Positions 28,473 through 33,203 of a DNA stretch of 64,000 nt are shown one piece after another. A program made the position numbers and the translations under genes. The notes beneath the pieces were generated by a model. That model saw only the letters and a list, made by a program, of their open reading frames with translations. It was not told the origin of the DNA and searched no databases. Positions within the stretch are counted from its first letter, which is position 1. Every line of letters begins with the position of its first letter. Source of the DNA: Polynucleobacter sp. UK-Kesae-W10 (lineage in GTDB: Bacteria > Pseudomonadota > Gammaproteobacteria > Burkholderiales > Burkholderiaceae); contig NZ_JACVQB010000006.1 in the NCBI RefSeq assembly GCF_018881575.1, positions 62,001 through 126,000 on the forward strand. The letters are read 5' to 3'.

Positions 28473-29975
28473 TCAGTCTTCGACGAAGGCTTCTTCGCGA
28501 GTCTTCTTTACTGCTGGCAAGGTCACCATAACCACCAAGAGGGCTGACGCAATGAGTAAGCCAAGCGACAGTGGGCGGGTTAAGAAGGTTGTGAAATCAC
28601 CGCGGGACAGCAATAAAGCGCGGCGGAAGTTCTCTTCCATCATTGGCCCCAAAACAAAGCCCAAAAGCAATGGAGGTGGTTCGCAGCCGAGTTTGAAGAA
28701 GAGGTAACCAATGATGCCAAAGGCGGCAGTTACATAAACGTCAAACACAGTGTTGTTTACGGTGTACACACCGATACAACAGAAAACCAAAATGGCTGGA
28801 TACATAAAGCGATAAGGAATCTTCAAGAGTTTTACCCAAATACCAATGAGGGGTAAGTTCAAGAGAATCAACATCACATTACCAATCCACATTGATGCGA
28901 TCAGACCCCAGAACAATGCTGGGTTGCTGGTCATTACCTGTGGACCTGGCTGAATGTTATGAATCGTCATCGCACCAACCATCAAAGCCATCACTGCGTT
29001 TGGTGGGATACCTAAAGTAAGCAATGGAATGAATGAGGTTTGAGCGGCAGCGTTGTTAGCGGATTCTGGGCCGGCAACACCTTCGATCGCGCCATGTCCA
29101 AATTCGTGGCTGTACTTAGAGGATTTCTTCTCAACAGAGTAGGCGCCAAAGGCGGCCAATGCAGCGCCACCACCTGGCAAGATGCCGAGGATAGAGCCAA
29201 TCGTTGTACCGCGCAAAATGGAAGGAATCATGCGCTTCACATCTTGCTTGGTAGGGATCATGGTGGTCATCTTGTTTAAGAAGCCCTCATCCTCATCCTT
29301 CTTCTCGAGGTTACTCATGATCTCGGCAAATCCAAACACACCCATGGCCACTGCAACGAAACCGATGCCGTCGCTCAATTCAGGAATGTCAAATGCATAG
29401 CGAGAAACACCGGAGTTCACGTCGGTGCCAATCAAGCCCATGAGCAAGCCTAATACGATCATGCCGATCGCTTTAATCAGGGAGCCAGATGCTAGAACTA
29501 CGGCACCGATCAAGCCCAAGACCATCAATGAGAAATACTCAGCGGGGCCAAACTTAAATGCGAGCTGTGAGAGTGGTGCGGCAAATGCGGCTAGTACTAA
29601 AGTCGCAACGCAACCAGCAAAGAATGAGCCCATACCAGCGGTAAAGAGCGCTACACCGGCTCGACCATTTCGGGCCATCTGATAGCCGTCGATCGCCGTG
29701 ACGACCGAGGACGTTTCTCCCGGAATGTTGAGCAAAATTGCGGTTGTGGAGCCACCGTACTGTGAGCCGTAGTAAATACCGGCCAACATAATCAATGCAG
29801 CGATTGGAGGCAAGGCGTAAGTGGCTGGCAAGAGCATCGCAATCGTTGCAATTGGGCCAAGGCCTGGCAACACGCCAATCAAAGTACCCAATACACAGCC
29901 AATCAGGCAGTACAGAAGGTTTTGTAAAGTAAACGCGGTATCGAAACCGAGAGCTAAATTAGCAAATAAGTCCAT
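28473..29975 (-). CDS. tctA: Tripartite tricarboxylate transporter, large membrane subunit TctA
   Basis: A 500-residue inner-membrane protein with about 11-12 hydrophobic segments. The family hallmarks are GVLPGLGPIATIAMLLP (about 34-50), YYGSQYGGSTTAILLNIPGE and a second GILPGGGAALAAF. Together with TctB and a periplasmic TctC binding protein it imports tricarboxylates or related organic acids driven by an ion gradient. tctB lies 19 bases upstream; no tctC is adjacent, so the substrate cannot be inferred from context. Confidence 0.95.
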   Translation of the reverse strand: MDLFANLALGFDTAFTLQNLLYCLIGCVLGTLIGVLPGLGPIATIAMLLPATYALPPIAALIMLAGIYYGSQYGGSTTAILLNIPGETSSVVTAIDGYQMARNGRAGVALFTAGMGSFFAGCVATLVLAAFAAPLSQLAFKFGPAEYFSLMVLGLIGAVVLASGSLIKAIGMIVLGLLMGLIGTDVNSGVSRYAFDIPELSDGIGFVAVAMGVFGFAEIMSNLEKKDEDEGFLNKMTTMIPTKQDVKRMIPSILRGTTIGSILGILPGGGAALAAFGAYSVEKKSSKYSHEFGHGAIEGVAGPESANNAAAQTSFIPLLTLGIPPNAVMALMVGAMTIHNIQPGPQVMTSNPALFWGLIASMWIGNVMLILLNLPLIGIWVKLLKIPYRFMYPAILVFCCIGVYTVNNTVFDVYVTAAFGIIGYLFFKLGCEPPPLLLGFVLGPMMEENFRRALLLSRGDFTTFLTRPLSLGLLIASALLVVMVTLPAVKKTREEAFVED

Positions 29976-29994: not shown

Positions 29995-30453
29995 TTATTG
30001 AAGAAAGAAAGGTAGTAATGGGAACTGAAGCTTGAGGCCCAAAACGAATACCGAGTATGTAAAGAAGATGAGGAAGGTGGCGTTAATTAAAGTGCCCTTC
30101 CAGCTGAATTCATGGCTAGCACTTGCAGACATGAATACCAAAACAAATACCGCCACGATGAAGCCCATGGTTGGCAATAAGATGCCGTAGAGGACAACAG
30201 AGCCAGTAATTAGGCCAATAATTCTCCAGTTAAATGGAGGAATCTTTTCAATGGCTGCTTTTGCGCTCATTGATTTAACAAGAATCAAGAGGCCTAAAGC
30301 CGTCATTACTAATCCCAGCCAGAATGGGAAATAGCCTGGGCCCATTTTGGCGGCGGTGCCCATTTGATACTGGGTGGCCATATAGGTAAAAAATAGGCCA
30401 ATGACCATATACATCAGGCCGGCCCCAAAATCTTTTTGATTACGGATTTCCAA
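29995..30453 (-). CDS. tctB: Tripartite tricarboxylate transporter, small membrane subunit TctB
   Basis: A small membrane protein with four hydrophobic segments and the TctB-type GPGYFPFWLGLVMTALGL motif. I place the start at a TTG at 30453, preceded by AAAAGGAG with a 6-base spacer, which gives 152 residues beginning with (M)EIRNQKDFGAGLMYM. A GTG at 30519 would add 22 residues of polar sequence without a ribosome site, so it is less likely. It heads the tctB-tctA transcript and is divergent from alaS. Confidence 0.88.
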   Translation of the reverse strand: MEIRNQKDFGAGLMYMVIGLFFTYMATQYQMGTAAKMGPGYFPFWLGLVMTALGLLILVKSMSAKAAIEKIPPFNWRIIGLITGSVVLYGILLPTMGFIVAVFVLVFMSASASHEFSWKGTLINATFLIFFTYSVFVLGLKLQFPLLPFFLQ

Positions 30454-30530
30454 GTTGCGCTCCTTTTGTATCGGCTTTTTTGCCGACTTATTTATTGATG
30501 TTGTGGGATTGTAAGGCACTACGGGGGTGT

Positions 30531-30556
30531 CCTGTCTAGGGTTTGCCCTAGACAGG
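30531..30556. repeat. Perfect 11-bp inverted repeat between tctB and alaS
   Basis: CCTGTCTAGGG (30531-30541) is followed by the loop TTTG and the exact reverse complement CCCTAGACAGG (30546-30556). No T-run follows on either strand, so it is not an ordinary terminator. The right arm overlaps the likely alaS -35 box, so it can be an operator. The E. coli alanyl-tRNA synthetase is known to repress its own gene by binding a palindrome at its promoter. Confidence 0.75.
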
Positions 30557-30571
30557 TGCCAATGCGATAAT
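30543..30571 (+). promoter_or_regulatory. Probable alaS promoter overlapping the inverted repeat
   Basis: TTGCCC (30543-30548) and GATAAT (30566-30571, five of six matches) are spaced by 17 bases. The -10 box is part of a second small palindrome, GATAATTATC (30566-30575). The expected start is close to the ATG at 30579, so the alaS message would be leaderless or nearly so. This is a prediction from box matches only. Confidence 0.45.
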
Positions 30572-30578
30572 TATCAGC

Positions 30579-33203
30579 ATGAAAGTCTCCCAAATTCGCC
30601 AGGCTTACCTGGATTTCTTTGCCCAAAAAGGCCACCAAATCGTTCCCTCCAGCCCAGTAGTGCCGGGGGATGACCCCACGCTGCTGTTTACTAATGCGGG
30701 GATGAACCAATTTAAGGATGTTTTTCTCGGCTTTGATAAGCGCCCTTATAGCCGTGCAACGACCGCCCAAAAATGTATTCGGGCGGGCGGCAAACATAAT
30801 GACCTCGATAACGTGGGCTATACCGCACGTCACCACACCTTTTTTGAGATGCTGGGTAATTTTTCCTTTGGGGACTACTTCAAGAAAGATGCCATTCAAT
30901 TTGCTTGGGACTTATTAACCCAAGTTTTCAAATTGCCAAAAGACAAACTATTGGTGACTGTCTATGCTGAAGATGACGAGGCATATGCTATTTGGAAAGA
31001 TCAAATTGGTGTGCCTGCTGAGCGGATTATTCGTATTGGCGATAACAAGGGCGCACGCTACGCATCGGATAATTTCTGGATGATGGGGGATACCGGTCCA
31101 TGCGGTCCTTGCACGGAAATTTTTTACGATCATGGTGAACATATTCCTGGCGGCCCTCCAGGTAGCCCAGAAGAAGATGGTGATCGTTTTATCGAAATTT
31201 GGAACAACGTCTTCATGCAATTTAATCGCGATGAAGCGGGCGTCATGCATCCACTGCCTAAGCCTAGTGTGGATACTGGCATGGGGCTTGAGCGCATTGC
31301 CGCAGTCTTGCAGCACGTTCACTCCAATTATGAAATCGACCTCTTCGTCAATCTCATTCAGGCCTCCAAGGATGCGGTAGATGGCGCGGGCGGTGAAAAC
31401 TGTGATGCCGCAAGCCCTTCACTCAGAGTGATTGCTGACCATATTCGTGCGTGTAGCTTCATTGTGGTGGATGGTGTTATTCCCGGCAATGCAGGGCGTG
31501 GTTATGTGCTGCGTCGGATTGCGCGTCGTGCGATTCGTCATGGTTATAAGTTAGGTGCACGCAAACCATTCTTCTATCAACTAGTTCCGGCGCTCGTCAA
31601 AGAAATGGGCGATGCCTATCCGGAATTGCGTGCAGCACAAGATAAAGTGAGTGAAGTGCTCAAGCAAGAAGAAGAGCGCTTCTTCCAAACGATTGCCAAT
31701 GGCATGGAAATTTTGGATGGTGCTTTAGCTGGTGGGGCAAAAATGGTAGATGGCGAAACTGCTTTCCGTCTCCATGACACATTTGGTTTCCCATTGGACT
31801 TAACTGCAGACGTTTGTCGTGAGCGTGGCGTCACCGTTGATGCCGAAGGTTTTGAAGTTGCGATGCAAAAGCAGCGGGATCAGGCCAGAGCTGCTGGCAA
31901 GTTCAAAGTGGCTCAAGGCCTCGATTACAAAGGCAAACCTACTCAGTTTCATGGCTACGATACCCTGAAGCATGAGGGCGCCAAAGTAACAGCGCTTTAT
32001 GTTGATGGCTCTGAAGTGACCTCTGTGAAGGCGGGCGATGCTGCTGTAATCGTGCTGGATAACACTCCTTTCTATGCTGAGTCAGGTGGCCAGGTTGGCG
32101 ATCAGGGTGAGCTGCGCAATGAGTCTGTCCGCTTTGCGGTTGAGGATACCTTCAAGATTCAGGCTGACGTATTCGGTCACCAAGGGGAAGTTCTTGAGGG
32201 CGAGATTAAGGTAGGTGACGCACTAAATGCCTTAGTGGATGTTCAACAAAGAACCGATACGATGCGCAACCATAGCGCTACCCATATCTTGCATAAAGCA
32301 TTGCGGGAAGTCTTGGGCGATCATGTGCAGCAAAAAGGCTCTTTGGTAGATGCTACCAAGACCCGTTTTGACTTTACCCACAATGCACCGATTACGGCAG
32401 AGCAGATTCGCCGTATTGAAGACATTGTTAATGAAGAGATTTTGGAAAATACTGCCACCTCTGGCAAGGTCATGTCTTTAGAAGATGCGCAAAAGACAGG
32501 TGCCATGATGCTGTTTGGAGAGAAGTATGGCGACGAAGTACGTGTATTGGAAATCGGCTCCTCTAAAGAGCTCTGTGGCGGTACCCACGTAGGGCGCACT
32601 GGTGATATCGGCAGCTTGAAGATTGTTTCTGAGGGCGGCGTTGCAGCTGGTATTCGTCGAGTAGAGGCGGTGACTGGTAAGCATGCACTTCAGTTCTTGC
32701 AAGCGTTGGAAGATAAGGTCAACGAAGCTGCAACCATTCTTAAAACCCATCCTGGTGATTTAGTGAATCGTGTTGCGCAGTTGCAAGAGAGTCTGCGCCA
32801 GGCAGAGCGCGAATTGGATAAAGTAAATTCAAAGCTGGCGGCAAGCCAGGGTGATGAGTTAGCTGGTCAAGCAGTAGATGTCAATGGACTCAAAGTGCTC
32901 GCAGCGCGTCTTGATGGTGCTGATGCAGGTGTACTGCGTGAAACGATGGACGCCCTCAAAGCCAAGTTAAAGACCGCTGCCATTGTGTTGGCTTCAGTAC
33001 AAGGCGATAAGGTGAGTTTGATTGCTGGCGTTACCGCGGACTCTATTGGCAAAGTTAAGGCAGGTGATTTGGTGAACTTTGTAGCCCAACAGGTGGGCGG
33101 CAAAGGTGGCGGCAAGCCAGAAATGGCAATGGCTGGTGGTAATGATCCAAGCAAGCTCGGTGCTGCACTAGCAGGCGTAAGAGATTGGGTGGCTAGCAAA
33201 TGA
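30579..33203 (+). CDS. alaS: Alanyl-tRNA synthetase
   Basis: A class II synthetase of 874 residues. The N-terminal catalytic core begins [18 protein letters not shown] and has the [14 protein letters not shown] motif. The editing domain keeps all four zinc ligands: H565 and H569 (HSATH), C666 and H670 (CGGTH). The C-terminal C-Ala domain ends in [15 protein letters not shown]. The gene is divergent from tctB across a strong palindrome, and its stop overlaps the start of tusA by ATGA. Confidence 0.97.

Follow-up and report, generated by a model that had tools for sequence, protein, structure and literature searches.

A conserved palindromic core between tctB and alaS in Polynucleobacter, a proposed operator of a putative tctBA activator

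Several described control systems lie close to the arrangement found between tctB and alaS in Polynucleobacter, an abundant freshwater genus with small genomes. In E. coli, alanyl-tRNA synthetase (AlaRS) represses its own gene by way of a palindrome at the alaS promoter. Here too a palindrome stands at an alaS promoter, but its core keeps step with tctB; none of 77 alaS loci from outside the genus set has it, and other genes are preceded by it as well. Class II activator sites like those of CRP/FNR lie near -41.5, and the locus resembles them in having a palindrome at about -42 of a promoter with a -10 box and, as judged largely by eye, no evident good -35 box, and in its steps of one helical turn; the half-site, however, reads AGGG and not TGTGA or TTGAT. 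TctD/TctE-type control of tct operons is likewise control of a tripartite tricarboxylate transporter, whereas the element here takes the form of an inverted repeat, and by eye no flanking gene codes for a regulator. Finally, fds in Cupriavidus is governed by the LysR-type regulator FdsR. A conserved palindrome precedes fdsG in Polynucleobacter too, yet there is no LysR-type gene among the five open reading frames tested around fds, and tctB and a GNAT acetyltransferase gene have the same motif.

As far as titles tell, no paper retrieved with a spelling of the motif deals with Polynucleobacter or with a betaproteobacterial regulator; judged by titles and the beginnings of abstracts, the literature on FdsR, on alaS autoregulation and on tct or fds in Polynucleobacter holds nothing on this element, and no paper on the E. 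coli alaS precedent surfaced. Spellings of the motif do occur in papers that, by their titles, concern a streptococcal resistance gene and Pseudomonas phages (PMC10314930, PMC5587285).

The inverted repeat and its flanking promoters

The window, the whole 64,000-nucleotide stretch of DNA that was analysed, contains between the divergent tctB and alaS genes the sequence CCTGTCTAGGG-TTTG-CCCTAGACAGG (Table 1), in which all 11 of 11 base pairs match across the 4-nt spacer. The palindrome described in the earlier note is thus real, and it is unique: the 26-mer pattern occurs once in the 2.04-Mb genome even when up to 3 mismatches are allowed, and we accordingly rejected a dispersed repeat family. 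A scan of the GTDB collection with the 24-mer pattern, spacer left free, gave no exact match, the window's own record possibly being absent there. The window has 4 separate sites with perfect arms of at least 11 bp and a loop of at most 10 nt, as against 2 in all, or 0.17 each, in 12 simulated 64-kb sequences (first-order Markov), which is more than expected by chance.

Table 1. Features of the tctB-alaS region, in coordinates of the window
Feature	Position	Strand	Basis
Perfect 11-bp inverted repeat, 4-nt spacer	30531..30556	none	full arms in 2/137 aligned genus loci
Conserved core AGGGTTTGCCCT, proposed operator of a putative activator	30538..30549	none	at most 1 mismatch in 123/144 loci
tctA, large membrane subunit	28473..29975	-	PF01970
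tctB, tripartite tricarboxylate transporter small membrane subunit	29995..30453	-	PF07331
Probable tctB start codon TTG; SD AAAGGAG at 30460-30466	30451..30453	-	genus alignment
Hairpin in tctB 5' leader just upstream of SD	30471..30486	-	leader comparison
Probable tctB -10 box TACAAT; by eye, 16-18 nt away no good -35 box	30508..30513	-	conserved across loci
alaS -35 box TTGCCC, within core in most of genus	30543..30548	+	promoter scan, core-to--10 spacing
alaS -10 box GATAAT with extended TGC	30566..30571	+	promoter scan, genus alignment
alaS, alanyl-tRNA synthetase	30579..33203	+	TIGR00344

Terminator prediction over 30400-30700 returned nothing at the repeat, which lacks the combination of a G+C-rich hairpin and a T-run, and an intrinsic terminator was rejected on this ground. 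In Rfam, 30300-30800 had only two matches, both eukaryotic and below threshold, which we took as chance. Because the predicted starts of both flanking genes fall outside it, the repeat probably acts as DNA and not as RNA.

On the alaS side, TTGCCC-17 nt-GATAAT is the sole sigma-70-like match of the promoter scan in 30400-30700 (shuffled sequences gave 0.5 +/- 0.8). The -10 box ends 7 bases upstream of the alaS ATG, so that the message is predicted to be nearly leaderless. The earlier note had placed the -35 box under the right arm of the repeat and had proposed an almost leaderless message, and both proposals hold up in most of the genus. Its second palindrome, over the -10 box, fares less well: GATAATTATC is a perfect 10-bp palindrome in the window, but the same stretch is perfect in only 17 of 144 genus loci.

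The scan found no minus-strand match in this interval, and the -35 region of tctB was otherwise judged by eye. The minus-strand promoter of tctB carries a conserved TTACAAT followed by a leader with a Shine-Dalgarno sequence. In the genus alignment the tctB start codon is TTG in 128 of 143 loci and GGAG is present in 131 of 143; the start of the longest open reading frame, GTG at 30519, is therefore probably wrong, and TTG at 30453 with its Shine-Dalgarno sequence is the conserved start. Many relatives have a leader hairpin, RTCGRC-N6-GYCGAT, just 5' of the Shine-Dalgarno sequence, with paired variation such as ATCGGC/GTCGAT and ATCGAC/GTCGGT; in some other relatives the tctB leader holds a different hairpin or none of this kind.

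The conserved core and the gene that it follows

We searched 151 genomes of the genus, the window's included, and found an alaS match in 149. Four genomes (G025, G092, G138, G142) were omitted, their match being incomplete or lying where a contig begins, and upstream regions were taken from 145 alaS loci; with L217 (69 nt upstream) too short, 144 were analysed. The tctB gene is divergent from alaS in 143 of the 145 loci, the other two (L177, L217) holding too little DNA. When the best match to the 12-bp core AGGGTTTNCCCT was sought on the alaS strand from about -140 to -30 of the ATG, 137 of the 144 regions had it with at most two mismatches: 78 loci had none, 45 had one, 14 two, 4 three and 3 four.

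The conserved element is the inner part of the repeat. Each core position carries 1.1-2.0 bits against 0.24-0.85 in the outer arms, where one position reaches 1.07; these values come from the 137 loci with at most two mismatches, a choice that favours the core, and the seven loci with more mismatches were left out of both the logo and the pairing counts. The left half AGGG, which lies outside the alaS -35 box, is about as conserved as the right half. Full 11-bp arms occur in the window and in L149 only. Among 100 distinct 26-mers, core pairs covary no more than they do in shuffled columns, and outer pairs clearly exceed the shuffles at two positions only, for which kinship alone could suffice. 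The palindrome is thus perfect here, but the genus conserves its inner 12-16 bp; the full repeat length is peculiar to this strain and one relative.

Which of the two genes does the core follow? In the window it is centred 33 bp from the tctB -10 box, and across the genus the distance between core centre and TACAAT centre is 33/34 bp in 125 loci and 44/45 bp in 14. Hence 139 of 144 loci hold the core at one of these two spacings, which differ by a helical turn, in a count for which the tctB -10 box was sought only 20-60 bp from the core and no placed locus offered a second candidate; in the other five (L154, L209, L214, L220, L226) the best core match is degenerate or lies elsewhere. On the alaS side, the same 139 placed loci have the -10 box 25 bp from the core in 116, 26-27 bp in 12, and 37, 66-68, 81 or 118-119 bp in 11, a span of 25-119 bp over which the core does not stay with the alaS promoter. 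Ten deep-clade loci keep the tctB spacing although the alaS -10 box is 66-119 bp off. A TctB tree built from 136 loci shows 7 or more changes of the spacing to tctB, all of them among 33, 34, 44 and 45 bp, while the alaS-side spacing takes ten values through at least 10 changes. In the main clade, the right half of the core doubles as the alaS -35 box.

A protein in contact with RNA polymerase needs just such a constant phase, with shifts by a whole helical turn. Judged from the position of the -10 box and the transcription start predicted from it, the site would be centred near -42 (or -53) of tctB.

Beyond the genus set, a wider search gave 80 alaS loci, 79 of them with at least 100 nt upstream (L111, with 38 nt, was omitted). 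Two of these, L032 and L033, have the core with at most one mismatch, and their upstream sequence is identical to that of L029 and L191 of the genus set. The remaining 77, set apart by record title and by identity of at most 86% to the start of the window's AlaS rather than by a tree, have no core at this threshold within 300 nt on either strand. The exact core is missing from all 20 tctB loci that were taken from other genera, two of which have a single-mismatch core within about 2.5 kb. Several other-genus tctB upstream regions show TAGGG-N5-ACCCTGA, with 5 central bases instead of 4 (uncounted), and, by eye, tctB of other genera has direct repeats resembling response-regulator sites.

Taken together, the fixed tctB spacing, the absence of the core from other alaS loci and its presence before fds and the GNAT gene favour a core that tracks the tctB promoter and not alaS, and suggest control of the transporter within a wider regulon. 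Of the two circuits that the earlier note had entertained, AlaRS autoregulation is unlikely in the light of these same observations, and control of the organic-acid transporter genes, its alternative, is the one favoured.

The core at other loci

The window's genome contains three exact copies of the core: between alaS and tctB, upstream of a formate dehydrogenase operon, and between a GNAT gene and a 16S rRNA gene. The formate dehydrogenase is of the NAD type, its alpha subunit matching TIGR01591. Upstream of fdsG in the 30 best-scoring loci, a sample that leans to closer relatives, the core is exact in 25, has one mismatch in 4 and two in 1. It lies there in a conserved block just behind the stop codon of the preceding gene, and a -10 box could not be assigned. 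After the core, at a near-fixed distance upstream of fdsG (L260-L289), comes the nearly invariant block CTTGAGCGCCGTCAAGGAC, which contains an inverted repeat.

For the GNAT gene, we drew loci from 18 chosen genomes, deep clades included; three were without a match and one had a weak match only. All 15 strong loci fetched by protein have the core, 14 of them exact to AGGGNWWNCCCT and L385 with one mismatch. In a set of 19 loci, which leaves aside four weak paralogs and four duplicate loci and owes 4 of its members to a search with the motif, the core lies 30 bp from a TANNNT hexamer in 13, 31 bp in 1 and 41 bp in 5, again a step of one turn; more than one TANNNT is in range in 11 of the 19, and the hexamer in line with the conserved one was chosen. 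The tctB and GNAT spacings differ by 3 bp. The GNAT gene beside the rRNA operon may be leaderless (L377 and other loci): in close relatives its -10 hexamer stops 6 bases short of the ATG.

A TctC-family receptor gene (PF03401) is preceded by the core within 2 mismatches in 24 of 30 loci, 6 of them exact, where the search covered 420 nt on either strand and the chance estimate, assuming equal bases, is about 0.1 per locus. These are 30 of the 31 loci listed, and one (G053) was first found by the motif. The window's genome has no match to that TctC gene at E <= 1e-60. Ahead of the TctC gene at L404, L405 and L407, variant sites with the pattern TTAG-N8-CTAA form, by eye, a tandem with a step of about 20 bp.

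Across ten other genomes there are 22 exact copies, 17 of which lie at alaS/tctB, fds or GNAT loci; one of the ten, G115, has none. The central bases of the core differ by locus. Three further sites were seen in passing: at L361 (G119, 1498-1556), a TTGACA/TATATT-like promoter that precedes a short open reading frame lies between two copies of the palindrome; at L347 (G124, around 1501), a single core abuts a hydrolase gene in an apparent bacteriochlorophyll cluster; and at L351 (G016, around 1501), the core precedes a gene for an apparent molybdopterin enzyme of the sulfite oxidase type, the gene names at the last two having been assigned by eye.

Counts alone show no clear enrichment of the core over its reversed pattern: 3 against 3 in the window's genome, 22 against 19 in the ten genomes, and 42 against 59 with up to 2 mismatches. 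Nor is the looser AGGGNWWNCCCT clearly over-represented, with 9 against 8, 6 against 5 and 11 against 5 sites in three genomes. Of the first 30 near-matches in the window's genome, 13 fall between genes; for the reversed pattern the figure is 4 among its first 30 (Fisher p = 0.02 with the ORF threshold set to 110 aa; p from 0.01 to 0.10 when it is varied from 80 to 150 aa). Several intergenic near-matches precede apparent transport or central-carbon genes, as read by eye from the first residues. The case for the core rests on position and not on number.

The putative factor and competing readings

We consider it reasonably likely, if well short of certain, that the core is the operator of a putative activator of tctBA and is shared with a small regulon; binding, activation and a single factor are all inferred here from sequence. 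The core AGGGTTTNCCCT, in its fullest form TTAGGGTWWACCCTAA, would be recognised by a putative dimeric transcription factor, bound near -42 with respect to the divergent tctB gene or a helical turn farther upstream. With a good -10 box and, as judged largely by eye, no good -35 box, the tctB promoter would have the arrangement expected where an activator recruits RNA polymerase. The same factor would probably serve the formate dehydrogenase operon, the GNAT acetyltransferase gene and, in many relatives, the TctC receptor gene, making up a small regulon of organic-acid and energy metabolism. Since the operator's right half serves at the same time as the alaS -35 box across most of the genus, a bound factor should reduce initiation at alaS and would probably dampen this gene. 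One short sequence could in this way be an activator site for one gene and the -35 box of its divergent neighbour. A conserved operator with strict helical phasing also gives a testable entry into the control of dissolved organic acid uptake and formate oxidation.

A more far-reaching proposal, which is tentative and less likely than not, is that a Polynucleobacter activator reading TTAGGGTWWACCCTAA jointly controls tctBA, TctC receptors, formate oxidation and GNAT, and lowers alaS expression during organic-acid uptake. If true, organic-acid uptake would be directly coupled to translation capacity through the expression of alanyl-tRNA synthetase.

The readings that compete with an activator site are not all mutually exclusive. 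The core might instead be the operator of a repressor of tctBA, for example of the TetR, MarR or GntR type; palindromic operators are typical of repressors, and the two copies that flank a promoter-like sequence at L361 would suit one. We nevertheless regard repression as rather unlikely, since activation better accounts for a site near -42, for helical-turn steps and for the lack, as judged by eye, of a good -35 box at tctB or GNAT. It is also unlikely that separate, unrelated factors act at the tctB, fds and GNAT sites, with the common 12-mer a coincidence: the same 12-mer is separately conserved at three loci and the same +11-bp step recurs at two of the three, even if the core lacks clear genome-wide over-representation and its central bases differ by locus. 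We give little credence to the view that the element is nothing more than the alaS promoter, with TTGCCC as its -35 box and the left arm a chance complement. The right half, the spacing and the extended -10 box are indeed conserved in the main clade, and the outer arms pair hardly better than shuffles; still, the left-half AGGG is about as conserved though it lies outside the -35 box, and in deep clades the entire core stands at a distance from alaS. Least credible of all is binding of the palindrome by AlaRS to repress alaS as in E. coli, for which that precedent and the overlap with the alaS -35 box in most of the genus speak, but against which stand the ten deep-clade loci, the 0 of 77 outside alaS loci and the same core before other genes.

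To return to the putative activator, no gene for a regulator was found among the neighbours tested, which included 9 open reading frames outside the window around fds or GNAT. The AAGGG-N4-CCCTT spacing led us to consider a CRP/FNR protein as the binder. Both such proteins found in the genome carry, by eye, an FNR-like E-T-[VI]-S-R helix, so neither is an obvious binder and we do not claim one. Elsewhere in the window's genome, a two-mismatch copy of the core (centre of L246) has, by eye, a TetR-type regulator gene on one side and a CoxG-like gene on the other, and this TetR-type gene is a possible candidate for the factor.
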